Shown one piece after another: positions 6,391 to 29,704 of a DNA stretch of 33,090 nt. The DNA comes from Tychonema litorale BBK16 (GTDB lineage: Bacteria; Cyanobacteriota; Cyanobacteriia; Cyanobacteriales; Microcoleaceae), in contig NZ_JAKJHX010000007.1 in the NCBI RefSeq assembly GCF_021648855.1, positions 1 to 33,090 on the forward strand. Reading direction: 5' to 3'. The position numbers and the translations under genes were made by a program. Position 1 is the stretch's first letter. Each line of letters begins with the position of its first letter. The notes under the pieces were generated by a model. That model had not been told where the DNA came from and searched no databases. It worked only from the letters and a program-made list of their open reading frames with translations.

Positions 6391-7341
6391 TTAAAATATA
6401 TCTGCTATGTAGTTAAAAACACCTTGACTTCCCTCGCCGTACTTTCCGATAAATTCAGCGATTAGTCGATCGCTACACCTTTCTATAGCTTCATCAAGAG
6501 AACTTTGAGCTAAAACTTGACTAGCCGACTGACGCAAAACCTCAAACAGATTCACAGTATAGCAAGTATCTTCACTGACAAAATCCCACAGTTCTCGACC
6601 GATTAAAGTGATCATTTCCGAATTAGGCAAAATTTGCTTCAGCAAACCAAGTGTTACAGTTTTATTAGTTCTTTTGCCGTAAGCTATACCAATATAAGCG
6701 CGATCGCCCTCCTGAATTTTTTCCTCAATTTTCGCAGCCCAATATACTATCTGGTCTTTATCCATATCATTTGGGCCGCTTTTTACCTGTATCCAGCATT
6801 TCTTGCCATCACTGGTAGTTTTAATTGCATCCCATCCTGACTTTCCCGGCGGACTTTCTGCACTTTCAGAGCAAGATATCAATAATTTTTCGATAAAAAA
6901 TCCCATTGAAGTGACAATAGACCTAGTGGCAGTCATATAAACATTGAGCCTGACAACTTCTTCGGGAGTGTTAAGATTTAACGCTCTGATTAAAAATGGG
7001 TTGGGATGAATTTTTCCTAAAGTCAGATTTTCCACCATAGCTAGCTGTCGCCCAGTAAAATCCCGACAAATACTGCCTAAGAAATTTTCAGCGATAGTAA
7101 GTTGCAGCGAAAGCTTCCCTGAAGATATAAATGCTAAAATTCGTTCAATCTCATCGGGAGTAAATTTAAGTGCTCTTTTCCCAGATATGCTGCTGATGCC
7201 GTTTATGAGTGTTTCTACTTGTAAGTTAAAAAATTCTTCTAACTCCGCAAAGTGACTGGCGAAAGATCGAGATTTGCTGGTCGGCAGTCCTACTTCTTTT
7301 TCTAAAACAAATGCTAATAATTCATGAAGTTGCTCAGACAC
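6391..7341 (-). CDS. Type II restriction endonuclease, PD-(D/E)XK-like
   Basis: 316 residues. The likely role is cleavage of DNA that lacks the modification made by the adjacent methyltransferase. The N-terminal half is helical, with NPFLIRALNLNTPEEVVRLN and ATRSIVTSMGFFIEKLL. The C-terminal half carries a PD-(D/E)XK-like centre, SGWDAIK followed by CWIQVKSGPN, giving Asp171 and the variant triad Q185-x-K187 in place of the usual E-x-K. From memory it resembles the PmeII family, but I could not confirm this. It begins 33 bp after the methyltransferase stop and is surely co-transcribed with it. The recognition site cannot be read from the sequence. Confidence 0.8.
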   Translation of the reverse strand: MSEQLHELLAFVLEKEVGLPTSKSRSFASHFAELEEFFNLQVETLINGISSISGKRALKFTPDEIERILAFISSGKLSLQLTIAENFLGSICRDFTGRQLAMVENLTLGKIHPNPFLIRALNLNTPEEVVRLNVYMTATRSIVTSMGFFIEKLLISCSESAESPPGKSGWDAIKTTSDGKKCWIQVKSGPNDMDKDQIVYWAAKIEEKIQEGDRAYIGIAYGKRTNKTVTLGLLKQILPNSEMITLIGRELWDFVSEDTCYTVNLFEVLRQSASQVLAQSSLDEAIERCSDRLIAEFIGKYGEGSQGVFNYIADIF

Positions 7342-7374
7342 TTATATTTTTCCTCATTCTATTTTAAATATTAG

Positions 7375-8562
7375 TTAACTGAAAAGAGACAACTGTTGAC
7401 TTATTTCTCTTCCTCTAACTCGATCGCCTTTAATTACCTGGTAAAGGTACTTACCGATCGCCTCTCCTAATAATACAGGAACAGCATTCCCAATTTGTCG
7501 GTATTTAGAAGCAGTCGATCCATAAAAAACCCAATCATCTGGAAAAGTTTGAATTCGCGCGCACTCTCTGACACTCAAAGGACGCAACTCATCAGGATGA
7601 CACATATCTGTAGCCTTTTGATGGGGACTGGTTGTGACAGTAGGCGACGGTTTATCCCATGCCAAACGTCGGTAAAAACCAACTTTACCGCCTTCAGATT
7701 TATAAGCTCCTCCCATTGCTTCTTGCTGTAATTCGCTGGGTAAATGCCTCCAGTTTTGACCTGCTGTTAACAGACGCAGATACTTGAGGCGATTTTCTGA
7801 ATAAGGGACAAATTCTGGCTGAGAATCTACTAAATCTTTGAATCCTTCTCTAATCGTCAACCATTTTGGTTTTTTACCAGTACCTTTCTGACTGTAAGTT
7901 GGTAATGGCAAAGTAACTGAATCATTACCTTTATAACCAATAAAAATCACTCTTTCTCTAGCTTGAGGAACGCCGTAGTCAGCAGTATTTAGTAAGTCAT
8001 ACATAACTTCATAACCAATGCGTTTCATCTCTGCCAAAATCACTTGTAAAGCTGAACCTGGCATTTCATCATGTTCTAATTGTGGGCAGCCTAAACCTCT
8101 GCGATCGTGAGGTCGATGTCGAATCGGAGCTGACAGCAATCCCTTAACATTTTCCATGATAAAAAAACGCGGTTTAATTTCATCAACAATGCGTATGAAA
8201 TCCATAAATAAGCTGCCGCGCGGATCGCCAACAGACCCTCGTTTTCCTGCTGTGCTGAAGGGTTGACACGGGGGGCCGCCAGTCACTAAATCTACTTCGT
8301 CAGCGCGTAGAGGTCTATCTAAACCTAAGATTTGTCCGCCTTCTTCTAAGAGAGTTTGGGCGCTGACTTCGCAAATATCTCTCGGTACAGCACATGGGGA
8401 TAAGTGAGGACGATTTAGAGAGATAGTTTTGGTAGCATCAGGTTCGATCTCTACTAAACTTACTGTCTGAAATCCTGCTTTTTCTAGACCTAAATCTAAA
8501 CCGTAGGCTCCAGCAAAGAGGCTAATAGTTATCGGTTTGTTATTAATCAACTGCTTCTTCAC
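7375..8562 (-). CDS. DNA (cytosine-5)-methyltransferase
   Basis: Transfers a methyl group from S-adenosylmethionine to C5 of cytosine. 395 residues with the full set of m5C motifs in order: I (FAGAYGLDLGLEKAG, 16-30), IV (GGPPCQPFSTAGKRG, 95-109, catalytic C99), VI (IMENVKG, 135-141), VIII (GVPQARERVIFIG, 197-209), IX (RECARIQTFPDDW, 332-344) and X (YRQIGNAVPV, 354-363). The target-recognition region lies between VIII and IX. It is followed directly by the restriction endonuclease gene, forming an M-then-R operon, the order that lets methylation start before cleavage. Intact and probably active. Confidence 0.95.
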   Translation of the reverse strand: MKKQLINNKPITISLFAGAYGLDLGLEKAGFQTVSLVEIEPDATKTISLNRPHLSPCAVPRDICEVSAQTLLEEGGQILGLDRPLRADEVDLVTGGPPCQPFSTAGKRGSVGDPRGSLFMDFIRIVDEIKPRFFIMENVKGLLSAPIRHRPHDRRGLGCPQLEHDEMPGSALQVILAEMKRIGYEVMYDLLNTADYGVPQARERVIFIGYKGNDSVTLPLPTYSQKGTGKKPKWLTIREGFKDLVDSQPEFVPYSENRLKYLRLLTAGQNWRHLPSELQQEAMGGAYKSEGGKVGFYRRLAWDKPSPTVTTSPHQKATDMCHPDELRPLSVRECARIQTFPDDWVFYGSTASKYRQIGNAVPVLLGEAIGKYLYQVIKGDRVRGREISQQLSLFS

Positions 8563-9056: not shown

Positions 9057-9428
9057 TCAAACCTTACCAACCTCCACCAACTCAACAGCACTAACAGAAC
9101 TTTCCTCTTCCCCTTCATCTTCAGTAACCGCAACAGATAACTTCAATCCCAGAGTATTCAGCCAATTAGCCAAAGCATAAATAGTTGCAATCCCTTCTTT
9201 TGGCAACAAAATATCTAATTTTTCCAGATGCAATTTAGCATCCTCCGCAGACATATTTGGTTCTCCAAGAGCTTCAAATACATCTCGAAGTGCTTTTCGC
9301 ATGATTCCTAATTCCAAATCTCCTTCTTCTTCCTCAAATATCTCTGTAAGGTAGCCAGCAGAATATGCCGGATCTTTGAGATTTGAAATTTTATAGGGGT
9401 GATAAGGTAAACTCTTAGACATTGTCAT
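9057..9428 (-). CDS. Antitoxin of tandem TA copy A (HI1420-like)
   Basis: Antidote protein of 123 residues, expected to bind and neutralise the toxin encoded just upstream and to repress the operon. The core AYSAGYLTEIFEEEEGDLEL, GIMRKALRDVFEALGEPNMS and IYALANWLNTLGLKLSV fits the HigA-like/HI1420 addiction-antidote family. The segment between, EDAKLHLEKLDILLPKEG, does not look like the usual helix-turn-helix of that family. An acidic tail EDEGEEESSVSAVELVEV ends the protein. The ATG at 9428 follows an AGGAG site by 8 nt; that site lies in the last codons of the toxin gene, so translation is probably coupled. A second ATG is at 9422. Confidence 0.85.
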   Translation of the reverse strand: MTMSKSLPYHPYKISNLKDPAYSAGYLTEIFEEEEGDLELGIMRKALRDVFEALGEPNMSAEDAKLHLEKLDILLPKEGIATIYALANWLNTLGLKLSVAVTEDEGEEESSVSAVELVEVGKV

Positions 9429-9432
9429 TGTG

Positions 9433-9759
9433 TTAACTCCTGTAATCTGTCCAGTATGTTTTAGCCTTGCGGATATCTTGCTCCTGAGTGCTTTTATCCC
9501 CGCCTATCAACAAAAGTACAATTGTTTCTTCTACTTGTCCAAAATAGACCCGATAGCCAGGGCCGTAATTTATCCTCAACTCACAGACACCTTCCCCCAC
9601 TGAACGATAATCTCCAAGATTGCCTTCCTGAACTCGATCGAGTCGCCCATCAATCTTAAATTTTGCCTTGAGATCACGGAGGGAGTCTAACCACTCCGAA
9701 AAAGGAACTTTGCCATCTGGTGTCGTGTAACGCTGAATTTCCCTGGGTTGTACTTCCAT
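9433..9759 (-). CDS. RelE/ParE-type toxin of tandem TA copy A (HigB-like, HI1419 family)
   Basis: 108 residues, the normal size of the phage-derived Gp49-like/HI1419 toxin family, whose studied members act as ribosome-dependent mRNA interferases. Family blocks are TPDGKVPFSEWLDSLRDLKA near the N-terminus, GVCELRINYGPGYRVYFGQ in the centre and LLLIGGDKSTQEQDIRKAK towards the C-terminus. The stop is 4 bp before the antitoxin start, with toxin first, as in other HigBA-type operons. Toxins B and C in this window are close paralogues. It appears intact. Confidence 0.9.
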   Translation of the reverse strand: MEVQPREIQRYTTPDGKVPFSEWLDSLRDLKAKFKIDGRLDRVQEGNLGDYRSVGEGVCELRINYGPGYRVYFGQVEETIVLLLIGGDKSTQEQDIRKAKTYWTDYRS

Positions 9760-9760
9760 A

Positions 9761-9779
9761 AATGCGATCGCAACTACTC
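9761..9779 (-). promoter_or_regulatory. Conserved leader of TA copy A
   Basis: AATGCGATCGCAACTACTC is identical before all three toxin genes and starts 1 bp upstream of the ATG. It includes a HIP1 octamer. Identity across otherwise diverged copies could mark a control site, or just be shared ancestry. Confidence 0.4.
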
Positions 9780-9794
9780 GTCAATCATCATAAA

Positions 9795-9825
9795 GGCGAT
9801 CCTCTCCGAGGGCTGCGCTAACGCC
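9795..9825. repeat. Small interspersed repeat, copy 2
   Basis: Identical to 9021-9051. It lies 6 bp past the stop of antitoxin B and upstream of toxin A, which makes it a boundary of the duplicated unit. Confidence 0.8.
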
Positions 9826-9830
9826 CAAAA

Positions 9831-10193
9831 TCAAACCTTAGCAACCTCCACCAACTCAACAGCACTAACAGAACTTTCCTCTTCCCCTTCATCCTCTTGA
9901 ACAACCGCAACTGCTAACTTCAATCCCAAAACATTCAGCCAATTAGCCAAAGCATAAATAGTTGCAATCCCTTCTTGCGGCAACAAAACATCTAATTTTT
10001 CAAGATGCAATTTAGCATCCTCCGCAGACATATTTGGTTCTCCAAGAGCCTCAAATACATTGCTAAGTCCGAGTTCGAGCAAACCGGCTTCAGGCTCATC
10101 ATCTTCCAAATGTGCCGTTAGATAAGCAGCAGCGTGTATTTTATCCTTAAGCGCTTCAATCAGATAGTCCTGGTAACTATCGCTAGTTGGCAT
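9831..10193 (-). CDS. Antitoxin of tandem TA copy B (HI1420-like, mosaic)
   Basis: 120 residues from ATG 10193, which aligns with the starts of antitoxins A and C; an in-frame ATG at 10208 and a longer open frame to 10280 overlap the toxin. The N-terminal third, SYQDYLIEALKDKIHAAAYL then LGLSNVFEALGEPNMS, is the classic antidote pattern and differs from A and C. From about 10030 to the stop the DNA is nearly the same as antitoxin A, including the acidic tail. The gene therefore looks recombinant. It overlaps the toxin B stop by 11 bp. The AGGAG site of copies A and C has changed here to GAAGA. Function as for copy A. Confidence 0.85.
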   Translation of the reverse strand: MPTSDSYQDYLIEALKDKIHAAAYLTAHLEDDEPEAGLLELGLSNVFEALGEPNMSAEDAKLHLEKLDVLLPQEGIATIYALANWLNVLGLKLAVAVVQEDEGEEESSVSAVELVEVAKV

Positions 10194-10524
10194 TTTCGCG
10201 TTCTTCATATTCTTTCCAATACTCCTTAGCTTTACGAATATCTTGTTCTTGACTGCTTTTATCCCCACCACAGAGGACAAGCACTATTGTTGACCCAAAT
10301 TGTCCGAAGTACACGCGATACCCCGGCCCAAAGTCTATTTTCAATTCGCAGACTCCTTCCCCAACAGACTTGGTGTTTCCTAAATTCCCCAAGCGAACTC
10401 GGTCAAGCCTTTGTTCAATTTTAACTACCGCATTCAAATCTCGCAGGGAACTAAGCCATTCTGCGAAAGGATTTCTACCGTCTGGGGTAATATAACGCCG
10501 AATGTCCCTTGGTTGTACTTCCAT
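10183..10524 (-). CDS. RelE/ParE-type toxin of tandem TA copy B (HigB-like)
   Basis: 113 residues, paralogous to toxins A and C: PRDIRRYITPDGRNPFAEWL, LGNTKSVGEGVCELKIDFGP, GYRVYFGQFGSTIVLVLCGG and DKSSQEQDIRKAKEYW. The extra C-terminal residues EERENAN result from the frame running further into the antitoxin start. All family blocks are present, so the toxin looks intact. The small differences from A and C over its whole length suggest it is the most diverged of the three toxins. Confidence 0.9.
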   Translation of the reverse strand: MEVQPRDIRRYITPDGRNPFAEWLSSLRDLNAVVKIEQRLDRVRLGNLGNTKSVGEGVCELKIDFGPGYRVYFGQFGSTIVLVLCGGDKSSQEQDIRKAKEYWKEYEERENAN

Positions 10525-10525
10525 A

Positions 10526-10544
10526 AATGCGATCGCAACTACTC
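10526..10544 (-). promoter_or_regulatory. Conserved leader of TA copy B
   Basis: Same 19 bp as at 9761-9779, again 1 bp upstream of the toxin ATG. Confidence 0.4.
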
Positions 10545-10574
10545 ACCAATCATAATATGGGCGATCGGCCTCAA

Positions 10575-10610
10575 TCAAGCATTACCAACTTCTGCCAACC
10601 CAGCACAATT
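10575..10610 (-). pseudogene. Antitoxin C-terminal remnant
   Basis: Read on the minus strand this gives NCAGLAEVGNA and a stop, matching the end of antitoxin C (ANIVELAEVGNV and stop) with closely similar DNA. It has no upstream coding part: the palindromic element at 10612 follows at once. It is the stump of a lost or duplicated antitoxin copy. Confidence 0.65.
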
Positions 10611-10611
10611 A

Positions 10612-10673
10612 GTAGGGTGCGTCAGTTGGAAAACCCTAATTTTTCCGAATAACCTTAAGACTGACGCACCTAC
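10612..10673. repeat. MITE-like palindrome in the TA array
   Basis: Terminal inverted arms GTAGGGTGCGTCAG (10612-10625) and CTGACGCACCTAC (10661-10673) enclose about 35 bp without coding capacity. The GTAGGGTGCGTCAG palindrome is a recurrent small element in many cyanobacterial and other bacterial genomes. It separates two closely similar antitoxin 3' ends. Confidence 0.75.
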
Positions 10674-10708
10674 AGGCTACAAGCTGCGGTTACAAAAGAT
10701 CCCCAAAA

Positions 10709-11071
10709 TCAAACATTACCAACTTCTGCCAACTCAACAATATTCGCAGAAATTTCCTCATCCCCTGCATCAACCGCAACTGTTAGCTTCAATCCCAAAA
10801 CCTTCAGCCAATTTGCCAAAGCATAAATAGTCGCCATTCCATTATGTGACATCAAAACATCTAATTTGTCAAGAAGCAATTTAGCGTCATCTGCTGACAT
10901 ATTTGGTTCTCCAAGAGCTTCAAATACATCTCGAAGTGCTTTTCGCATGATTCCTAATTCCAAATCTCCTTCTTCTTCCTCAAATATCTCTGTAAGATAA
11001 GCCACCGCAAATAAGGGATCTTTGAGAGATTTAATTTTCAAGGGATGGTAAGGTACACTTTCATTAGACAT
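10709..11071 (-). CDS. Antitoxin of tandem TA copy C (HI1420-like)
   Basis: 120 residues from ATG 11071. This start aligns with copy A and follows AGGAG by 8 nt inside the toxin end; the longer open frame to 11149 lies wholly within the toxin gene. The sequence SLKDPLFAVAYLTEIFEEEE, MRKALRDVFEALGEPNMS and IYALANWLKVLGLKLTVAV is the same family as A. A 101-bp block (10896-10996) is identical to 9250-9350 in antitoxin A, while both flanks diverge. That pattern points to recent gene conversion or recombination. The ATG overlaps the toxin C stop by 8 bp, so translational coupling is likely. Function as for copy A. Confidence 0.85.
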   Translation of the reverse strand: MSNESVPYHPLKIKSLKDPLFAVAYLTEIFEEEEGDLELGIMRKALRDVFEALGEPNMSADDAKLLLDKLDVLMSHNGMATIYALANWLKVLGLKLTVAVDAGDEEISANIVELAEVGNV

Positions 11072-11402
11072 TTTTTCGACTCCTGTATTCTGTCCAATAT
11101 TTCTTGGCTTTACTAATATCTTGCTCTTGAGTGCTTTTATCTCCGCCACACAACAGAAGCACTATAGTTGTTTCTACTTGTCCAAAATAGACGCGGTAGC
11201 CCGGTCCAAAGTCAATTTTAAATTCCCAGACTCCCTCTCCGAGCGATCGAGCATCTCCCAGATTACCATCGCTAACCCGCTCAAGTCTTTTCACAATCTT
11301 GGCTTTACCCTGAAAGTCTCGGAGAGATTCCAACCACTCCGAAAAAGGAATTTTGCCATCCGGTATCTTGTACTGCTGAATTTCTCTGGGTTGTACTTCC
11401 AT
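11064..11402 (-). CDS. RelE/ParE-type toxin of tandem TA copy C (HigB-like)
   Basis: 112 residues with the same blocks as toxins A and B: KIPDGKIPFSEWLESLRDFQ, GNLGDARSLGEGVWEFKIDF, GPGYRVYFGQVETTIVLLLC and GGDKSTQEQDISKAKKYW. It is the first copy in the direction of transcription, and its leader is 216 bp from typA, which is divergent. Intact by eye. Cross-neutralisation between the three pairs cannot be judged from sequence. Confidence 0.9.
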   Translation of the reverse strand: MEVQPREIQQYKIPDGKIPFSEWLESLRDFQGKAKIVKRLERVSDGNLGDARSLGEGVWEFKIDFGPGYRVYFGQVETTIVLLLCGGDKSTQEQDISKAKKYWTEYRSRKNV

Positions 11403-11403
11403 A

Positions 11404-11422
11404 AATGCGATCGCAACTACTC
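11404..11422 (-). promoter_or_regulatory. Conserved leader of TA copy C
   Basis: Same 19 bp as at 9761-9779 and 10526-10544. The sequence diverges just beyond it, so the duplicated unit ends close to here. Confidence 0.4.
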
Positions 11423-11451
11423 GCTCATGATCATAAAGGCATCGACCAAAA

Positions 11452-11493
11452 TCAAACCTTCACAACCTCCACCAACTCAACAGCACTAACAGA
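11452..11493 (-). pseudogene. Remnant of a fourth antitoxin 3' end
   Basis: On the minus strand it encodes SVSAVELVEVVKV and a stop, nearly the same as the ends of antitoxins A and B (SVSAVELVEV-KV). The preceding coding sequence is missing; unrelated DNA of the typA upstream region abuts it. The array therefore once held at least one more pair. Confidence 0.75.
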
Positions 11494-11618
11494 ACCATAA
11501 TCCTGATTTTAGCCACGATCGCACCCCAATATTGCCACCACCCGATCGCCTCTTGACTTCATGCGCTACAATCGTTAAGAAATCTTTAGTTAAATCCGTT
11601 TAACGTCCCAGACGCATT

Positions 11619-13409
11619 ATGAGTCTTCCCATTCGCAACGTTGCTATCATTGCTCACGTCGATCACGGCAAAACCACCCTTGTGGACGCTCTTCTCAGAC
11701 AGTCCGGGGTCTTCCGCGAAGGGGAAGAAATCCCAGATTGCGTCATGGACTCCAATGATATCGAGCGCGAGCGTGGCATCACCATCCTTTCCAAAAATAC
11801 CGCCGTCCGTTACGGAGAAACCCTGATCAACATCGTCGATACCCCCGGACACGCCGACTTCGGTGGCGAAGTTGAACGAGTTCTCGGCATGGTAGATGGT
11901 TGTTTGCTCATCGTAGACGCCAACGAAGGCCCGATGCCACAAACCCGCTTCGTACTCAAAAAAGCCCTGGAAAAAGGACTCCGCCCGATCGTATTTGTCA
12001 ACAAGATTGATCGCGATCGAGCCGACCCCCACAAAGCCGTCGATAAAGTCTTAGACTTGTTCCTCGAACTAGGCGCTGACGACGATCAGTGCGAATTTCC
12101 CTATCTCTTCGGTTCCGGCCTAAGCGGTTACGCCAAAAAACACCTCGAAGACGAAGGGGTAGATATGAAGCCCCTCTTTGAAGAAATCCTCGACCACGTA
12201 CCACCCCCAGTCGGCGACCCCAACAAGCCACTACAACTGCAAGTAACCACCCTAGATTACTCAGAATACGTCGGTCGTATCGTCATCGGCCGCATCCACA
12301 ACGGCACAATCCGAGTCGGTCAACAAGCGGTCTTAATCACCGAAAGTGGCGCCCTTGTCAAATCAAAAATCAGCAAATTGATGGGCTTTGAAGGCCTGAA
12401 GCGGATTGATATCGCAGAATCTACTGCTGGTAATCTAGTCGCCGTTGCTGGTTTTGCTGACGCCTATATTGGCGAGACAATTACTTGTCCCAACGACCCG
12501 CAAGCTCTACCTTTAATCAAAGTAGACGAACCAACTTTGCAGATGACTTTCTCTGTGAACGATTCGCCGTTCTGCGGTCAAGAAGGTACTTTGGTAACAT
12601 CGCGTCAAATTCGCGATCGGCTAATGCGAGAACTCCAAACCAACGTCGCCTTGCGCGTCGAAGAAACCGAATCTCCCGACAAATTCCTCGTATCCGGCCG
12701 TGGCGAACTCCACCTCGGAATCCTGATCGAAAATATGCGCCGCGAAGGATACGAATTCCAAGTATCTCAACCGCAAGTAATCTTCCGCGAAGTCGGCGGT
12801 CGTCCCTGCGAACCCTTTGAATGTTTGGTCTTAGACGTACCCGAAGAAGCAGTCGGCGGCTGCATCGAACGCCTCGGTCAGCGGAAAGCAGAAATGCAAG
12901 ATATGCACGTCAGCAGCACCGGCCGTACCCAAATCGAATTTTCAGTCCCCGCTCGCGGTTTGATTGGATTCCGAGGCGAGTTTATGCGCTTGACTCGTGG
13001 CGCTGGAATCATGAACCACAGCTTCCTCGACTATCGCCCCCTCGGTGGAGAAATTGTCGCCCGTCGCAACGGAGTATTGATTTCCTTTGAAGAAGGAACT
13101 GCAACTACTTATTCACTGAAAAATGCTGAAGACCGTGGCGTATTTTTCATTACCCCCGGAACCAAGGTTTACAGAGGGATGATTATCGGTGAAAACAACC
13201 GAGATGATGACATGGAGCTGAATATTTGCAAGTCGAAGCAGTTGACAAACCACCGCGCATCTGGCGGTGAAGAGTTGGCGCAATTGCAAGCACCAGTCGA
13301 TATGAGTTTGGAACGTGCTTTGGAGTACATCGGCCAGGATGAATTGGTGGAAGTAACACCAAAATCAATTCGCTTGCGGAAGGTTTCTAAGAAGTTGGTC
13401 AAACGGTAA
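11619..13409 (+). CDS. typA: Ribosome-associated translational GTPase TypA/BipA
   Basis: 596 residues, the standard TypA length. It binds 70S ribosomes and helps ribosome assembly and stress adaptation. GTPase motifs are G1 AHVDHGKTT (12-20), G2 RGITI (52-56), G3 DTPGH (74-78) and G4 NKID (128-131). These are followed by the beta-barrel domain, EF-G-like domains III and V ([40 protein letters not shown]) and the TypA-specific C-terminal domain ending in [21 protein letters not shown] at 11567-11572 is a possible -10 element, but no matching -35 is clear. A strong hairpin follows the stop. It is a core gene bordering two accessory clusters. Confidence 0.98.
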
Positions 13410-13416
13410 AATAACT

Positions 13417-13444
13417 TGATGGCTGGCAAAATTGCCAGCCATCA
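13417..13444 (+). terminator. Perfect 13-bp hairpin after typA
   Basis: TGATGGCTGGCAA (13417-13429) and TTGCCAGCCATCA (13432-13444) form a perfect stem with a 2-nt loop, 7 bp after the typA stop. The position fits a terminator, although no U-tract follows, which is common in cyanobacteria. Confidence 0.75.
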
Positions 13445-13498
13445 GTGTCAACTTCAAACTGTATATAATCGACTTGGGCTTGTAAGTGCAAAGTCTTG

Positions 13499-13548
13499 TA
13501 GGATAACAGATGTATTTATAATCAATCCTTAAGTTTATCGTTATCCTA
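13499..13548 (+). promoter_or_regulatory. Perfect inverted repeat upstream of AAA ATPase gene
   Basis: TAGGATAAC (13499-13507) and GTTATCCTA (13540-13548) are exact inverses, 32 bp apart, ending 19 bp before the ATPase ATG. A TATAAT lies just upstream at about 13463. The pair could be two operator half-sites or an mRNA leader hairpin. Confidence 0.4.
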
Positions 13549-13567
13549 ACTTTTATAAATAAAAATT

Positions 13568-14719
13568 ATGCTGAAGAGAATTTATGTAAATAATTTTAGG
13601 TGCCTGGTCAATTTTGAATTGAGAGTAGATAGTTTAAATCTATTTCTGGGTTCAAATGGATCGGGAAAAACTACCGTTTTCGAGGTTTTAAGAAAATTAC
13701 AGAAATTTATTTTAGGCGATCAAGCTTTCCAGCAAGATTATAAAGTATCAGATTTGTTTGCAAGCAAGGATTTAACAAGATGGCAAAAATCAAACATTCA
13801 AAAATTTGAATTAGATATTGAAGGAAATGGTGGCATTTATAAATATACCCTAGAGATCGAACATCAAAGAGACTATGCACCTCCTAGAATGCGACTAGAA
13901 AGCTTAACTTTTGACGGACAACCTCTGTTTAATTTCTGGGTTGATCCAGGCGATATAGGTATAACTGTAGGCCAAGCTAGGTTGTATAATGACGATCCTA
14001 ATCGTGAAAGTGTTTACTTACCGTTCTTTGATGGGTCGCGTTCTGGTATTAGTTTTATTTACGAGAGGCCTGACAATCTAAAGCTTACATGGTTCAAAAA
14101 ACGGATTTCTAACTTTTTTATTGTACAGATCAATCCTTATATAATGGAATCAGAAAGCCTTAAGGAGGAAAGTTCACCTAACTGGGATATGTCAAATTAT
14201 GCAGCTTGGTACAGCTATTTATCTCAAGAATCTCAAGGTAAAATATTTAAGTTAACGCTGGAATTACAAAAAATTATCCCAGGATTTGATTCATTTCAAA
14301 ATTCTAAATCCGGTGATGTGAGGATTTTAGCGGCATCTTTTACCCGTCCCAGCAAGGCTGCTTATAGGCTTAATGAATTATCGCACGGTCAAAGAGTTTT
14401 AATTGCTCTATACACCTTAATATATTGTTCTCCTGATGAGGATTTTACTTTGTGTATTGATGAACCAGAAAATTTTCTGGCTTTACCGGAAATAAAACCT
14501 TGGTGGGGTAAGGTGATGGACTATTGTCTGGAAAATAAAGCACAAGTAATGTTAATTTCTCATCACCCTTTGTTAATTAATTATTTAGCTAGCAATTCAG
14601 GTTATTGGTTTGAACGAGAAGATAATGAAGCTGTTCGCGTGCGCCGAATTACTGATACGGTCGAAGAAGGCTTATCAGTTGCTAAGCTTATAGAACTTGG
14701 ATGGATTTATGACGAGTAG
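13568..14719 (+). CDS. AAA/ABC-type ATPase of a putative defence pair
   Basis: 383 residues of the RecF/SMC/OLD-like ATPase group. Motifs are Walker A GSNGSGKTT (28-36), the ABC-like signature LNELSHGQR (268-276), Walker B LCIDEPEN (295-302) and an H-loop SHHPL (331-335). The insert between Walker A and the signature is about 230 residues with no recognisable domain and no coiled coil long enough for an SMC. The downstream gene, encoding a Toprim-like protein, overlaps the last 11 bp, so the two form a translational pair. In family terms this resembles OLD/Gabija/PARIS-style systems, in which such an ATPase senses phage and licenses a Toprim nuclease. That role is inference. The DNA is more AT-rich than typA next door, consistent with transfer. 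Confidence 0.85.
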   Translation: MLKRIYVNNFRCLVNFELRVDSLNLFLGSNGSGKTTVFEVLRKLQKFILGDQAFQQDYKVSDLFASKDLTRWQKSNIQKFELDIEGNGGIYKYTLEIEHQRDYAPPRMRLESLTFDGQPLFNFWVDPGDIGITVGQARLYNDDPNRESVYLPFFDGSRSGISFIYERPDNLKLTWFKKRISNFFIVQINPYIMESESLKEESSPNWDMSNYAAWYSYLSQESQGKIFKLTLELQKIIPGFDSFQNSKSGDVRILAASFTRPSKAAYRLNELSHGQRVLIALYTLIYCSPDEDFTLCIDEPENFLALPEIKPWWGKVMDYCLENKAQVMLISHHPLLINYLASNSGYWFEREDNEAVRVRRITDTVEEGLSVAKLIELGWIYDE

Positions 14720-15305
14720 AGATGATTTACCCGAAGTAACTATTCTCTGTGAAGATATTGACCAAGAGCGATTTATCAGAGAATATCTGATCTGCTGCGG
14801 CCTGGACGATCGCAAAATTATAGACTTTGATAATCCTAAAGGGAGAGTAATTAAGAATAACAATGCTTCGATAGTCAAGTATTATCCAGCTCTTATGAAA
14901 AGTTATAGAAGAACACGTAAGTATAAAAATATTGCTGTAGTGGTAATGATTGATGCTGATGAAGATAGCTTGGACGATCGAATGCGTTCTTTAAATATAG
15001 CATTAGACGAAACAGCAGGTAATTTAAACAGAGATCCGCGACTGCGTGACGAGAAAGTTGCTATTTTTGTGCCCGCCCGAAATATTGAAACGTGGTTTTA
15101 TTATATTAATAGCGATCTATCTGGTCACGAATGCAATGAAATCACAGATTATAAAGATAAAAAAATGAACACAAAAGAGAGGATTGAATTAGCTAAAAAA
15201 TCGGCAAGAATATTGGCTTTAGAAATATGTCCCCAGGGAGTCGATCGCATTGCTTTGCCTTCTCTTCGTTATGCGTGTAGCGAGTTGCAACGGCTAAAGT
15301 TGTAA
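14709..15305 (+). CDS. Toprim-like protein, partner of AAA ATPase
   Basis: 198 residues from ATG 14709, which overlaps the ATPase end by 11 bp; a TTG at 14697 is a less likely start. The layout fits a small stand-alone Toprim domain: a beta strand ending in an acidic residue (VTILCEDIDQERFIREYL, E15), then VVVMIDADEDSLDD with the D-x-D pair D82/D84, then FVPARNIETWFYYI, a motif typical of DUF4276/DUF4435-like Toprim proteins. These residues could bind Mg2+ for nucleic-acid cleavage. The rest of the protein is not recognised. Paired with the ATPase it makes a two-gene unit similar in plan to AriA-AriB (PARIS), but I see no direct similarity that would let me name it so. Confidence 0.7.
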   Translation: MTSRDDLPEVTILCEDIDQERFIREYLICCGLDDRKIIDFDNPKGRVIKNNNASIVKYYPALMKSYRRTRKYKNIAVVVMIDADEDSLDDRMRSLNIALDETAGNLNRDPRLRDEKVAIFVPARNIETWFYYINSDLSGHECNEITDYKDKKMNTKERIELAKKSARILALEICPQGVDRIALPSLRYACSELQRLKL

Positions 15306-15408
15306 AGAATTAGTCAGTTGATTTGACCCTAGTATACGATCGCCCTCTGCACTAACCTCCACAATATGTTTTAATTTATATTTGAGCAAAATCTAGACAA
15401 AGCCAGCC

Positions 15409-16308
15409 ATGAGTCCAAAATCCATAGCCGTGATCAACTTCAAAGGCGGTGTCGGGAAAACTACCGTCACTTGGAGCCTGGGAAATATTATATCCCAAAG
15501 CACAGACTTAGAAGTCCTTATGCTAGACTTAGACCCGCAGATGTCGCTCACAGAGGCGATCGGGCTTAACGAGAGTACGGGCCATTTAGATGACAAATTT
15601 GGCAAATGGTACGAAAAATCACTTAGGGAAAGACGAACAATTTACGACGCTCTCGAATTATTTAAAAAAAACGGACAAAATTTTAAATTTCCCGTAGGTT
15701 TCGACACCATTTACGAAATTGATGAACAATTACATTTTGTCCCATCCGTAGAAGAATTATATTGGTTAGATTTGGATGGATTTGAAGGCAAAAATGTTAA
15801 AGACTTCATCCGTAGATTCATCGGCAAAATTACTAACTCTGCCAACTCTATAAACTCTGCAAACTCTGTCAATCTACCCAAATATGATTTGATGCTGTTT
15901 GACTGTTCTCCTTCCTTTAGTCTCCTCACTTACAGTGTACTTTCTTGTTGCGACTTAGTATTAATTCCCGTGAATCCAGATTACTTTGGTTCTAGGGGAT
16001 TGAGTTTAGTCTTAAACTCTCTGCAAAAGCGGATTGAACCTTATCCTTTTCCCAAGATTGCAGTGTTTATGAATAAAGCTAAAATCTATGGAGGACTGCT
16101 AACTAACGAAGTTCAGTTTTACATGAGAGAGGTGAAAAGACTTTGCGCTGATATTTCCAAAGACAATAATATAGAAGTTAAGTTTCTAGAATCGACTATT
16201 CGGGAAAGCGTCGGTCTGAAACGAGCTATTAATGAAGGGGAATTGCCACGAGAATTAGTCAGGGAATTTGAACAGCTTTGGGCAGAGTGTGCGGAGTATC
16301 TGAAATGA
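15409..16308 (+). CDS. ParA/MinD-family ATPase
   Basis: 299 residues of the deviant-Walker ATPase family, which partitions plasmids, chromosomes or protein cargo by patterning on DNA. The deviant Walker A is KGGVGKTT (12-19) with the signature lysine. The A' block is LMLDLDPQMSLTEAIG, and the Walker B strand is YDLMLFDCSPSFSLL. A late VLIPVNPDYFGSRGLSLV segment also fits. A short insertion with NSANSINSANSVN (about 144-156, DNA repeats at 15835-15873) breaks the fold before Walker B and looks like a microsatellite expansion. The stop overlaps the next ATG (ATGA), so expression is coupled. It begins 103 bp after the Toprim-like gene, so all four genes may be one transcript. There is no parS-like array in sight. 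Confidence 0.9.
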   Translation: MSPKSIAVINFKGGVGKTTVTWSLGNIISQSTDLEVLMLDLDPQMSLTEAIGLNESTGHLDDKFGKWYEKSLRERRTIYDALELFKKNGQNFKFPVGFDTIYEIDEQLHFVPSVEELYWLDLDGFEGKNVKDFIRRFIGKITNSANSINSANSVNLPKYDLMLFDCSPSFSLLTYSVLSCCDLVLIPVNPDYFGSRGLSLVLNSLQKRIEPYPFPKIAVFMNKAKIYGGLLTNEVQFYMREVKRLCADISKDNNIEVKFLESTIRESVGLKRAINEGELPRELVREFEQLWAECAEYLK

Positions 16309-16754
16309 TTAAAAAAGAAGTTTTGGCTGATGATGAAAGCTCGCAGTTAGTTGATGAAATTAGCGAACTTAAGGAAATCCTGCGCGAGGTTTCTAAAAAA
16401 TTAACTAGGATTGAGGCTAAAGTCAAACGGGGAGGCATTTCTGCAACTCCCAAAGCTTCCGAATCTACCATATCTCAACCAGATGGAACTAACGAAAAAC
16501 CTGCTAATTTATCCGCAGAACAGGTCATCCAAATCTATGAACAACTGCGTTTAAAAGCTAAAAACGGGAAGGAAGAAGAGGTGAGGAAAAAGTTGTTATC
16601 TATGACTGCAACTGACTTGAGTTTGATTTGTTTGGAATTAGGTATGCCTCCCACCGCCAAGAATCCATCGCGCAAAAAGATGATCGAGGTAATCCTTGGT
16701 AGAATTAAACAAAGTTTGATGCTGTCGCGACATATCGATCGACAAGCACTTTAA
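16305..16754 (+). CDS. Small coiled-coil protein coupled to ParA
   Basis: 149 residues from the ATG that overlaps the ParA stop by 4 bp. Residues about 11-42 (SSQLVDEISELKEILREVSK and onward) form a likely coiled coil. A polar linker follows, then a helical basic C-terminal domain with EQVIQIYEQLRLKAKNGKEE, LICLELGMPPTAKNPSRKKM and IEVILGRIKQSL. It has no ParB N-terminal box and no obvious helix-turn-helix. Small, unrelated partners next to ParA genes are usual and often act as the cargo adaptor or DNA-binding component; here that is inference from position. The family is not known to me. Confidence 0.75.
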   Translation: MIKKEVLADDESSQLVDEISELKEILREVSKKLTRIEAKVKRGGISATPKASESTISQPDGTNEKPANLSAEQVIQIYEQLRLKAKNGKEEEVRKKLLSMTATDLSLICLELGMPPTAKNPSRKKMIEVILGRIKQSLMLSRHIDRQAL

Positions 16755-16760
16755 AAGTAA

Positions 16761-16878
16761 CCGAGGACACTATAGAAGACACGTGCCGTGTCCCTATAAT
16801 TAATCAGGTAGGGACACGGCAATGCCGTCTCCTCCTCTTGGCGGTCAACCATCAGGACACGGCAATGCCGTGTCCTCT
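16761..16878. repeat. GGACACGGCAATGCCGTGTCC-type palindromes
   Basis: Nested palindromes built from GGGACACGGC and GCCGTGTCCC: one pair at about 16785-16820 and another at about 16854-16876. The unit is a widespread cyanobacterial intergenic repeat. It fills the gap between two convergent genes and could end transcription from both sides. Confidence 0.75.
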
Positions 16879-16890
16879 TACAAAATATTC

Positions 16891-18555
16891 TTAAATTGGA
16901 GCAGATGCGATAATCTTTTTCTCTTTTAATTGTTGGCGAGCTTCCAATTCATCTAAATCAACTTCCTCATGTTTTTCATCCTGCACCTGTTTGTCAATTT
17001 TTGGCAACTTTAAGATCGCCCCAGCCAAAACCCAGTAATAAACCGATACTGGATCTACATCCAGAGGATAATATTGAGTATTGACCGTAATAAATGCCAC
17101 AAACACCCAAAAACTAGCTCCATAAGTGCGTAAACTTTTGTCTTTCACAGAACGATAAGCTCTAAAAGTTAGAAAAGCTAAGTGTAAAACCATTAGCTGA
17201 AAAGCAATCATTCCCGGATAACCCAGTTCGTACATCAACTTAGGTTGAAAAGTCTCAATTAGTTGCGTCGCACCAAATGTTCGAGTTGAATTAGTGGCTC
17301 GCCCCACACCTCTACCCAGATGTCTGTCAATGATAAAATTGTGGCTCTGCTCAAACTGATTAAACAGAAATTGTTGCGGTGGTGCAGCATTCCAGCGGTT
17401 AACAAAACTCTCCCACCGCTGCTCCATAATTCCTGGGTTAATTGCTGTACCAGCAAACAACAGAACAGCAAGTCCTACACCAATCGGAATAAATCGTTTC
17501 AAATTAACGACTTGACCAGTGAGAATTAGCAGCACAAAAGTGGCAACTGGAACCATTACTAAAGCAGCTCTTTGACCGGAAATAACGGCGTTTGCAAATA
17601 CTAATGCCATGCCAAATAAACCGATCATTCTCCACCAGAATGAAGGGTCACAAAAAGCAGAAGCAAAGGTCAAGAAGGCATTCCCAATTAAAAACCAAGC
17701 CCACTGCCAAGGGGCGACAAAAGTTCCCGGTAAACGGATAAATTTGACTTCTGGACTAAATACAAGAGAACCGCCGACAAAACATCTAGCTTCTAAGGTA
17801 GCTTTATACAATTCTGCTCCTGACATTCCTCGCGTACCCGCACACCTTCCACTTTGTAGTAACAGGTACTGAATTAAACCTAGAATGCAGCAAACGATTG
17901 CCAAAATTATGTGCATTCGACTAAAAAATATTAAATCTTTTTTAGTCCGAATTAGATAATAAGTACAAGTGATGAGCGGTATATAACCGATCAATACTTT
18001 TAAGCCCAGAATTCCTTGGAGTAAGGGTTTCTCACCTTTCATCGGGTTAAGCTGCATATCCCCGTTAACAAAAATTAAAGTCAGCAGCGCCATCATCAAT
18101 AGGATACTGAAGGTGGGCATCAGTTGTTTTGGAAGGAAGATGGGTAGTTGTTTATTTTTGCAGCTTTGAATGAGGGCGATGAGAGCTGGTATGTAGAAGG
18201 CATCTTTAGCTACTTGAAATGCTGCATTTCCGCCGCCAATGGCGTAGGTAATTGTACCGCTAAAAGGCAGGTAAATTAGAAATGCCCACAAAGCTTGACG
18301 GGGATATTTGTAGGAAAATATCAAGATTGCTACGGCGCAACCTGCTGCAATGGCAAGCTTGGCGCGGATAACGAATAACAGGGGAATGGTGACAGCAGCG
18401 CTGATTAAGCTATTAATCACGATCGCCTGGACGAGTTCATTACGCTTCTGTGAAATTTTGCGTTTTTGTGCACTTACTTCTTTCTTACTGAGTGCGGTGT
18501 TGTTTTCCTTTCGCTTGTGTTTGGATTTCTGGGATTTGCGCTTGGTTTTAAACAT
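16891..18555 (-). CDS. hpsL: Probable hormogonium polysaccharide biosynthesis protein HpsL (polytopic membrane protein)
   Basis: 554 residues from ATG 18555; the TTG at 18591 adds only non-conserved residues. A very basic cytoplasmic N-terminus (FKTKRKSQKSKHKRKENN) precedes about ten or more hydrophobic segments. The segment with SYKYPRQALWAFLIYLPFSG and TYAIGGGNAAFQVAKDAFYI is the part I recognise from HpsL proteins. The layout, with a large loop near ARCFVGGSLVFSPEVKF and a late GRGVGRATNSTRTFG, is that of O-antigen ligase/polymerase-like proteins. HpsL belongs to the gene set for the polysaccharide that supports gliding hormogonia. The name rests on memory of the family; the class, a polysaccharide polymerase-like membrane protein, is surer. 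No other hps gene is adjacent. Confidence 0.7.
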   Translation of the reverse strand: MFKTKRKSQKSKHKRKENNTALSKKEVSAQKRKISQKRNELVQAIVINSLISAAVTIPLLFVIRAKLAIAAGCAVAILIFSYKYPRQALWAFLIYLPFSGTITYAIGGGNAAFQVAKDAFYIPALIALIQSCKNKQLPIFLPKQLMPTFSILLMMALLTLIFVNGDMQLNPMKGEKPLLQGILGLKVLIGYIPLITCTYYLIRTKKDLIFFSRMHIILAIVCCILGLIQYLLLQSGRCAGTRGMSGAELYKATLEARCFVGGSLVFSPEVKFIRLPGTFVAPWQWAWFLIGNAFLTFASAFCDPSFWWRMIGLFGMALVFANAVISGQRAALVMVPVATFVLLILTGQVVNLKRFIPIGVGLAVLLFAGTAINPGIMEQRWESFVNRWNAAPPQQFLFNQFEQSHNFIIDRHLGRGVGRATNSTRTFGATQLIETFQPKLMYELGYPGMIAFQLMVLHLAFLTFRAYRSVKDKSLRTYGASFWVFVAFITVNTQYYPLDVDPVSVYYWVLAGAILKLPKIDKQVQDEKHEEVDLDELEARQQLKEKKIIASAPI

Positions 18556-18726
18556 GAACTGCAATAGGTTGTATGGATAAGAAGCTGGCAAGTTACAAAT
18601 AATAATTATGTAGTTGCTCGAGTAAATTATTTTAAAAGTTGATGTTGAAAATAAATATGGCTCAAGATTGTATGTGTGGGTGTTATAAAAATTTGGGTTG
18701 CGAGCTTGTAGAATATAACTGCTGCA

Positions 18727-18742
18727 TCTACAATAATGTAGA
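18727..18742. promoter_or_regulatory. Short palindrome upstream of DUF1400 gene
   Basis: TCTACAATAATGTAGA is a perfect 6-bp inverted repeat with a 4-bp centre, 32 bp before the ATG at 18775. It could be an operator or a small leader hairpin. Confidence 0.35.
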
Positions 18743-18774
18743 AGGCTCCAATTAGTTTTAATTTTGCAGTCATT

Positions 18775-19470
18775 ATGAAGTTAACAAAATTTGTATCGAT
18801 CGGCATCACCGTATTTCTAGCAGCAAGCGCTAGCATATTGTCGGCGCACACTAAAGCATTAGGGGCCCAAAAAGTTGTGCTGACTTTTGGCCCGCTTAGA
18901 CAAAGCATTAATGTCAGCGACTTAGAAGACTTTGCCAAAGATGGCACAACCACCCCAACCATCCGACAAATCATCGGATTCTCAAAAATGGATGCGGGAA
19001 CCCTACGCGGGTTGATTGGTTTAGAAGTTGGCTTAAAGCCGGCTAATTTGGCCCGAATACTTTACAGCACTCCAGGAGAAAAAATTGTCAATGAAATCGG
19101 TGAAGCAATTCGGACTCAGCGCAACACCGAAAATGGTAAAGCTTTGCGCGCTGCGGTAATTCTCGCAGCCAGCGATGATGGTAAATTATCGCTGCTAGAA
19201 ATTCTGCAACAATATCCCCTAGCGGAAATGTATGTAGATGTTCCCAAAATTACGGCGACAGTGGCGAAAATTCAAGGTTTAGCCGGAAATATGCAAACGT
19301 TGCTTCAAGATAGTATGCGATCGACTACTACAACTGAAACAACTACTACCGAAAATGCGATCGAACCACGGCGTAGCGTCCAGCCCACCACGCCCCCTCC
19401 GCGTCCCGTCATCGCACCCGCACCCGCACGGATACCGCAGCCAGCAAGACCTGTTAGAGGACTGTGGTGA
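18775..19470 (+). CDS. Secreted DUF1400-type protein
   Basis: 231 residues with an N-terminal signal sequence (MKLTKFVSIGITVFLAASAS, cleavage plausible after ALGA). The mature part, QKVVLTFGPLRQSINVSDLE, followed by LRGLIGLEVGLKPANLARIL and LAASDDGKLSLLEILQQYP, is the DUF1400 module that precedes an alpha/beta-hydrolase domain in many cyanobacterial lipase-like proteins. Here it stands alone with a Thr-rich and then Pro-rich tail (TTPPPRPVIAPAPARIPQPA), which suggests an extended cell-wall or export linker. There is no hydrolase domain, so no enzyme activity is implied. Function unknown. Confidence 0.8.
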   Translation: MKLTKFVSIGITVFLAASASILSAHTKALGAQKVVLTFGPLRQSINVSDLEDFAKDGTTTPTIRQIIGFSKMDAGTLRGLIGLEVGLKPANLARILYSTPGEKIVNEIGEAIRTQRNTENGKALRAAVILAASDDGKLSLLEILQQYPLAEMYVDVPKITATVAKIQGLAGNMQTLLQDSMRSTTTTETTTTENAIEPRRSVQPTTPPPRPVIAPAPARIPQPARPVRGLW

Positions 19471-28699: not shown

Positions 28700-29626
28700 C
28701 TATGGCATAAACCTTATATTGATCCCTCGATAACTGTTAAAACTGCCACGACCGCCACCACCGCCACCACCACCACCGCCACCGCCACCACCGCCGCCCC
28801 CTCTGTATCCACCTGTTAAACCACCATATCCACCACTTATAGGAGGAATTCGCGAAATTGGTTGGTTACTATAACCACTCCGTGTCGGAACATTCCATCG
28901 ACTGAGATCGAGTTTTTCGCATTTACCGCCTCCCCCAGTTTGAGTACCCTGAATATTGTTGTTACCTTGTCCTGTAGGCGGAGTAGGCAGACTGATATTT
29001 GGCTGCGATAAAGGTGGCAGACCTAAATTCCGTCGAGAAGGAACCTGCGGATTTGGATCGAGCCCAGAAGGATCGGTTAAATTCACTGGTTCATTAACAA
29101 TATAACCGTACAAATTCCCATCTCCACCACCAAACCCAATCGGATCTTTCGCCGTCCACTTCCCCGCAACAGCATCATAATCCCTAAACCCAAACCGCAC
29201 TAACTCCGTATCCACATCTATTAACCCCCCGGCAAAACTAATATGCAGTTCAAACTCTGGGTTGCGATCGACAATAACTTGACCAAAGCTATCGTATTCC
29301 AGAACTTTAACGACTTCACCATTAACATCGCAGACGACTCGCGGGGTGCCTAGTTGGTCAGTGGTAATGTAATACCAGTTGCGATCCCGTTCTAGGGCAA
29401 AGAGTAAGCCAAAATCATCATAGTGATAGCGGCTTAAACTGCCTGATGGTGAACGGACGGCGGTGAGTTGAAAGGGATGGTTGGGGTTGCCGTAGAGGTA
29501 TTGGGTTGTGCCATTTTCATCGGTACGAGCAACCCGGCGGTTCATGCTGTCGTAGGTGTAGGTGATTTTTTTGATCGCTGTCATACAATCGAATGCTGTG
29601 AGATTTTTGCACGGCAATTCTTGCAC
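28700..29626 (-). CDS. Displaced RHS core with alternative C-terminal tip
   Basis: Orphan RHS tip of up to 308 codons; starts at GTG 29626 or ATG 29584 are both weak, so it may be silent. From ITYTYDSMNRRVARTDENGT to NLYGYIVNEPVNLTDPSGLD it parallels the end of the large RHS protein encoded just upstream (29705-33090), with the core's closing block KWTAKDPIGFGGGDGNLYGY. After the core, the tip is unrelated to that of the main gene: a Pro/Asn-rich part, then a run of about 17 glycines (28750-28800) and RGSFNSYRGINIRFMP. Displaced tips of this sort serve as a store of alternative toxin ends that recombine into the main gene. This tip has no recognisable toxin domain and no evident immunity gene. 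Confidence 0.8.
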   Translation of the reverse strand: MQELPCKNLTAFDCMTAIKKITYTYDSMNRRVARTDENGTTQYLYGNPNHPFQLTAVRSPSGSLSRYHYDDFGLLFALERDRNWYYITTDQLGTPRVVCDVNGEVVKVLEYDSFGQVIVDRNPEFELHISFAGGLIDVDTELVRFGFRDYDAVAGKWTAKDPIGFGGGDGNLYGYIVNEPVNLTDPSGLDPNPQVPSRRNLGLPPLSQPNISLPTPPTGQGNNNIQGTQTGGGGKCEKLDLSRWNVPTRSGYSNQPISRIPPISGGYGGLTGGYRGGGGGGGGGGGGGGGGGRGSFNSYRGINIRFMP

Positions 29627-29704
29627 AAGAGAAGCTTGATATCCTTATCTATAGTCAGAATTTATGGATTTGAGAATCTCTTTGTCACAAAAACAAAATT
29701 TACA

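Follow-up and report, generated by a model that had tools for sequence, protein, structure and literature searches.

A stretch of 33,090 nucleotides from the cyanobacterium Tychonema litorale BBK16 (contig NZ_JAKJHX010000007.1, positions 1 to 33,090; hereafter the window) carries two overlapping genes for an ABC-type ATPase and a small protein with a Toprim-like fold. Judged from its sequence, the pair is a distinct family of the known kind in which an OLD-type ABC ATPase is combined with a Toprim protein (OLD-ABC + Toprim), and the best reading is that of a small two-gene relative of PARIS, AbiL and HEC-01. An anti-phage role is likely, because the same chromosomal slot in some sister strains holds other pairs of the same kind. 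With slightly better than even confidence, we regard the pair as a sensor-effector immune module, in which the ATPase would restrain the nuclease until a phage signal is received.

The ATPase and its Toprim partner

A reading-frame check placed the two genes on the same strand with an overlap of 11 bp, and thereby confirmed the layout, the ATPase motifs and the 198-residue partner described in an earlier sequence-only reading of the window.

13568-14719, plus strand: ABC ATPase gene, 383 amino acids (aa), of OLD/PtuA/Rad50 type, TAG stop at 14717-14719
14709-15305, plus strand: Toprim-fold gene, 198 aa, ATG at 14709; by sequence and model a probable two-metal nuclease

An alternative TTG start at 14697 would give a Toprim protein of 202 aa.

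The ATPase has the fold and motifs of its class. Walker A (GSNGSGKT, with K34), the signature (LSHGQ, with S272 and G274), Walker B (DEP, with D298 and E299) and the H-loop (H333) were all intact, as expected for the OLD-ABC + Toprim kind, and G28, N30, G31, G33, K34, S272, G274, D298, E299 and H333 were invariant across 42 aligned ATPases. The protein scored above cut-off for four generic Pfam families, AAA_15 (expect value, E, 4.2e-16), AAA_21 (1.3e-15), ABC_tran and AAA_23, and below cut-off for all 25 NCBIfam families listed of 49; it lay far under the NCBIfam defence models MAD3 (41.6 bits, cut-off 420) and PtuA (31.7 bits, cut-off 500). Its PADLOC matches were to HEC-01A (PDLC04182, 1.5e-24), AriA (PDLC02980, 4.3e-17), AbiLi (2.5e-16) and mad3 (1.6e-15). 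When solved structures were searched by sequence, the OLD protein 6p74 (3e-6) and three entries of ABC-F type were matched. Overall, the ATPase was nearest to PtuA and to Rad50/SMC-like heads, with a weak resemblance to RecF.

The Toprim assignment of the earlier reading was borne out by a structural model with a predicted local distance difference test (pLDDT) score of 87. The best rows for this model were four structures of two OLD proteins, at a moderate score, and the acidic residues, the E and the DxD, were placed where the expected strands end, as in the OLD-ABC + Toprim kind. Across 60 aligned Toprim proteins D82, D84, N125, E127 and W129 were invariant and E15 was E in 59; the loci behind most of these rows had been retrieved by a peptide pattern spanning either E15 or N125-W129, so that each such row was partly bound to show one of these motifs, a bias from which D82 and D84 are free. 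The sole exception at E15 was locus L069, whose ATPase gene is broken. With the metal-site residues of OLD as template (PMC7049728, partial text), E15, D82 and D84 fit a predicted metal A site and N125 and E127 a predicted metal B site of the OLD two-metal pattern.

The Toprim protein remained under the cut-offs of both Pfam families listed for it, DUF4276 (PF14103; 16 vs 30.2 bits) and DUF3226 (PF11536; 14.3 vs 27 bits), and no NCBIfam family was matched at E up to 1. Its best PADLOC match, HEC-01B (PDLC04200, 4.5e-6), was distant and covered residues 66-164 only, and a sequence search of solved structures with the Toprim profile gave one meaningless row (E 0.39). Within the set of 60 family members, DUF4276 matched 14 (best 0.00071) and DUF3226 matched 21 (best 0.0017) at E up to 1, and the commonest HEC-01B model matched 31 at E up to 0.01. 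Profile-profile comparison gave single-comparison E-values of 0.0012 for DUF4276 (24 columns) and 0.0011 for DUF3226 (49 columns); an unrelated control gave 0.16. The likeness of the family to both appears to be motif-level only, and membership of either was rejected because the protein fell below both Pfam cut-offs. The earlier claim that the pair matches no named system therefore largely holds, as the ATPase passed generic Pfam cut-offs only and the PADLOC matches were distant.

Distribution and the typA-ParA slot

The Toprim protein was matched (E up to 0.001) in 27 of 98 related genomes, the window's own included, and no match was found in the other 71; three of the 27 (G039, G047 and G048) hold only fragments of fewer than 50 residues. 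Within the genus, 13 of 29 genomes carried the family: the window's form was present in four and a shorter 185-residue form, which sits elsewhere in the chromosome, in ten, with one genome having both. When GTDB species genomes were scanned, 127 stretches were confirmed, of which the best 80 gave the 77 loci used here. The family was found in cyanobacteria, Thiotrichaceae, Chloroflexota, desulfobacteria, Myxococcota, Poribacteria, Calditrichota and others.

Pairing of the two genes was stable. In 75 of the 77 loci, an ATPase sequence with the same orientation lay at most 263 bp upstream of the Toprim gene; the remaining two loci are cut by contig ends. The distances of the two proteins co-varied (Mantel r 0.89, 0 of 2000 permutations; window plus 61 loci, with broken and contig-cut loci excluded). 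While 65 of the 75 pairs looked whole, ten were flagged as broken: in both genes (L049 and L091), in the ATPase gene (L038, L069, L103 and perhaps L104, where the flag may be a false alarm) or in the Toprim gene (L048, L088, L090 and L102). The whole Toprim frames beside broken ATPases at L038 and L103 suggest that the Toprim protein may need the ATPase or a trigger in order to act. The broken pair at L049, in Okeania hirsuta, looks like a relic in which a deletion has fused the first part of the ATPase with the last part of the Toprim gene.

A quick tree of 64 ATPase rows showed two main cyanobacterial branches, one of which holds the shorter form. The window's branch of 12 rows joined four Thiotrichaceae rows to give a group of 16 with a Shimodaira-Hasegawa-like approximate likelihood ratio (SH-aLRT) value of 100. 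The window ATPase stood nearer to the Thiomargarita one (60%) than to the ATPase of the shorter form in its own genus (50%).

The chromosomal position of the pair is defined by the following features.

13461-15336, no strand: replaceable segment with the ATPase-Toprim pair, about 1.9 kb
11619-13409, plus strand: core left flank of the slot, which we take, by recall from its sequence, to be a typA/bipA-type GTPase gene; in 28 of 29 genomes of the genus
15409-16308, plus strand: core right flank, a ParA-like ATPase gene outside the pair's system; in 28 of 29 genomes of the genus

We discounted a role for the ParA gene as an additional component of the system, since those genomes have it with or without the pair. 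The guanine-plus-cytosine fraction was 0.36-0.39 across 13001-16000, AT-richer than most of the window, in agreement with the earlier description of AT-rich DNA between core genes.

The slot was readable, with typA and ParA on one contig, in 20 of the 29 genomes, and the interval measured 510 to 10,207 bp. The pair occupied it in four of these 20. In the other 16, similarity to the window ended at 13414-13468 and restarted at 15324-15365, indicating clean replacement. Hence, with 71 of 98 genomes also lacking a match, the pair is accessory and exchangeable, and a conserved core locus, the case that the earlier reading had set against itself, was not what we found.

Other pairs of the same kind, with the ATPase first and a Toprim-like protein second, were found in the slot of sister strains. 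G006 and G003 have an ATPase with a DUF3226 protein (PDC-M38 type), scored in G006 as PDC-M38A 2.5e-75, PDC-M38B 4.5e-11 and DUF3226 4.3e-33 and assigned in G003 from reading frames and a DUF3226 match. G016 and G007 have an ATPase with a DUF4276 protein (HEC-01 type), scored in G016 as HEC-01A 5.4e-48, HEC-01B 1e-4 and DUF4276 3.7e-8 and assigned in G007 from reading frames and a DUF4276 match. An EAD4-NACHT-HEAT protein lies in the slot of G006 and, as two pieces, in that of G007; a frame in G025 resembles it by look, judged without a domain scan.

L163:2531-6718, minus strand: EAD4-NACHT-HEAT-NCAB1 protein, 1396 aa, in another strain's copy of this slot; L177 has a relative in two pieces

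The remaining intervals contain TPR proteins, frames read as YoeB-like toxins (without a family search), or little beyond spacer. The genus as a whole has 45 DUF3226 and 58 DUF4276 matches above cut-off in 188.6 Mb, and four such matches fell within the 64 kb of the slot versus 0.035 expected (P 6e-4 if treated as two events); the slot was picked post hoc owing to the window's pair, which was excluded from this count. Since three pairs of one kind alternate in one slot, guilt by location becomes testable within a single genus. We tentatively raise a broader possibility, which we hold to be somewhat doubtful, that the pair founds a separate OLD-like immune class with a small Toprim protein and an N-x-E metal-B motif, spread across Cyanobacteriota, Thiotrichaceae, Chloroflexota, desulfobacteria and others; the Microcoleus typA-ParA interval would then be a hotspot where three ATPase-Toprim pairs replace each other.

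Synonymous divergence of the pair between the window and three congeners was 0.11-0.17, compared with 0.81-0.92 for ParA, 0.60-0.64 for the next large gene and 0.17-0.22 for typA, the last perhaps low from codon bias. Even from two other lineages the pair diverged by 0.29-0.38, under the value of ParA between window and congeners. The simplest reading is a recent horizontal exchange of the cassette, with codon constraint in the pair as a possible alternative cause. The ratio of nonsynonymous to synonymous divergence (dN/dS) of the Toprim gene was 0.44-0.50 when a strain was compared with the window and 0.25-0.29 when the other three were compared with each other, versus 0.03-0.05 for ParA.

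Relation to described systems and proposed mechanism

The OLD/PARIS-like two-gene plan proposed by the earlier reading was supported by comparison with known systems. HEC-01, a PADLOC candidate, has the same plan (HEC-01A ATPase and HEC-01B) and gave the best PADLOC match for both proteins; however, the pair's values of 1.5e-24 and 4.5e-6 fall far short of the 2e-135 and 1.6e-71 of HEC-01 genes found beside family members. PARIS (AriA/AriB; OLD class 4) likewise has adjacent genes for an ABC ATPase and a Toprim effector, and the AriA model matched the ATPase. At E up to 1, and with filters that discard weak matches, the five PADLOC families listed as matches of the Toprim protein did not include an AriB model, and its two listed Pfam families did not include DUF4435, which we take to be AriB's family. 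OLD class 1 and class 2 (Gabija GajA) share the E, DxD, x-x-E metal pattern, and OLD C-terminal structures were closest to the Toprim model, but these are fusion proteins whereas the window's genes are separate. AbiL (AbiLi/AbiLii-RloB) and MADS (mad3/mad4) have an ATPase and Toprim-like plan, with AbiLi and mad3 matching the ATPase; in contrast, RloB matched one of the 60 Toprim family members (E 0.017) and mad4 two (best 0.0034).

Two candidates were rejected. Gabija was dismissed because there is no GajA fusion and the next gene is ParA-like, with no UvrD-like GajB helicase, and a retron effector (OLD class 3) because the flanks are typA-like and ParA-like and Rfam, which may miss some retron RNAs, had no match in 11000-19000 at E up to 0.1. 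No paper on DUF4276, DUF3226 or PDC-M38 was found in the openly licensed literature. OLD-ABC ATPases paired with Toprim or other nucleases are a well-described theme (PMC12839542, partial text), so the kind of system is not new.

In PARIS, AriA sequesters AriB and senses phage proteins, and AriB cuts tRNA (PMC12409363, partial text). The AAA:TOPRIM_OLD pairs of E. coli are antitoxin and toxin (PMC10440598, partial text), and OLD and GajA enzymes cut DNA (PMC10568477, partial text). From these precedents we infer the same logic for the window pair, in complex formation, trigger, substrate and phage protection alike. The ABC ATPase would assemble, bind the small Toprim protein and hold it inactive. 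Once a phage infects, the ATPase would be altered by one of its products or by a shift in nucleotide state, and the Toprim protein, using two metals via E15/D82/D84 and N125/E127, would cut nucleic acid, either host tRNA (as AriB) or DNA (as OLD and GajA), and so abort the infection. The pair adds to the OLD-ABC + Toprim systems a compact, widespread family, unnamed in the libraries searched and with residues to test listed above, and it bears on the question of how Toprim effectors divide into those that cut tRNA and those that cut DNA.

Alternative functions and the wider neighbourhood

Some observations do not fit a simple defence-island picture. At 29 loci outside the genus with full flanks, we compared up to two nearest genes per side (n = 105) with up to two genes per side beyond 5.5 kb (n = 97), excluding 11 same-genus loci, loci with short flanks and genes longer than 900 aa. 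At 1e-15 the 105 nearest genes matched 59 PADLOC families and the 97 distal ones 41, which is no convincing enrichment of defence genes beside the pair. The window Toprim protein had no match in phage or plasmid records, a type B protein had none in plasmid records, and a search of viral contigs with the family alignment gave 31 pattern matches, none of which was confirmed. In the window itself, the core gene typA separates the pair from both the restriction-modification (RM) genes and the supposed toxin-antitoxin (TA) genes.

6391-8562, minus strand: EcoO109I-like type II restriction endonuclease (PF14511, 2.7e-15) beside a C5-cytosine methylase
9057-11402, minus strand: three tandem copies of a two-gene unit, perhaps a TA array

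The first protein of this unit (MEVQPR...) was weakly Gp49/HigB-like, at 22.4 bits against a Pfam cut-off of 23.9, and its small partner matched no Pfam family (one copy scanned). The earlier argument from nearby RM and TA genes is thus weakened, the RM genes being close by but, like the supposed TA genes, beyond typA. The linkage to defence genes it proposed fared similarly: there was no clear excess at the 29 loci, but the sister slots do hold OLD-like pairs and NACHT genes, and these make the better argument.

The main rival is a housekeeping role as a chromosomal DNA-repair or cell-cycle module, formed by a RecF/Rad50-like ATPase and a Toprim partner, which we judge unlikely. It would account for the Rad50/SMC-like and weakly RecF-like ATPase, for the lack of copies found on plasmids, phages and viral contigs, and for a pair location that recurs in Nostocales, and it has a precedent in Cran1, an OLD protein of archaea that seems to be essential and to have no antiviral role (PMC12796447, partial text). 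However, a pair that is patchy (71 of 98 genomes without a match), decaying (10 of 75 pairs flagged broken) and replaceable (16 of 20 readable slots) speaks against such a role, as does the Toprim dN/dS compared with that of ParA.

Less probable again is a TA-like addiction module with a Toprim nuclease toxin and an ATPase antitoxin, in which defence would be secondary. The overlapping two-gene layout, the AAA-neutralised TOPRIM_OLD toxins of E. coli (PMC10440598, partial text) and the YoeB-like frames in the same slot of several congeners agree with it, and it overlaps and is compatible with a sensor-effector immune module. An ATPase antitoxin is harder to reconcile with L038 and L103, where the ATPase alone is broken and the Toprim frame is whole, or with the absence of the whole cassette from 16 of 20 readable slots. 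Plasmids or other mobile DNA, instead of phage, might be the target of the defence; this Septu/Wadjet-like logic would suit an ATPase nearest to PtuA and SMC-like heads, but the present data do not separate phage from plasmid targets and we consider it improbable.

Many of the neighbourhood PADLOC matches were to PD-T4-6 models, which presumably represent a kinase. HEC-01 stood out near family members, with 2 of the 105 proteins for each component, probably including L050:10723-11829 by its sequence. At L050 (Hormoscilla) a second ABC-ATPase gene, probably of HEC-01 type, follows the pair at 10723-12520, and this may represent two OLD-like pairs in tandem.

In Nostocales with the shorter form, a gene of 369-389 aa repeatedly begins 4 bp past the Toprim stop (L052, L056, L058, L060, L063, L067, L069, L070, L077 and L102), identified by place and length outside L052 and L056, and a gene of about 640 aa repeatedly lies upstream on the opposite strand. 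By their look we take the former in L052 and L056 to be a MerR-type regulator and the latter in L052 to be a heavy-metal P-type ATPase. The gene of 369-389 aa is possibly co-transcribed with the pair.

No tRNA was found in the window. Two further features were recorded there.

16278-16754, plus strand: small protein after ParA, not counted with the pair; also after ParA in three congeners with the pair
28700-32731, minus strand: two YD/RHS-like reading frames of 308 and 1008 aa, with a similar stretch in common by eye
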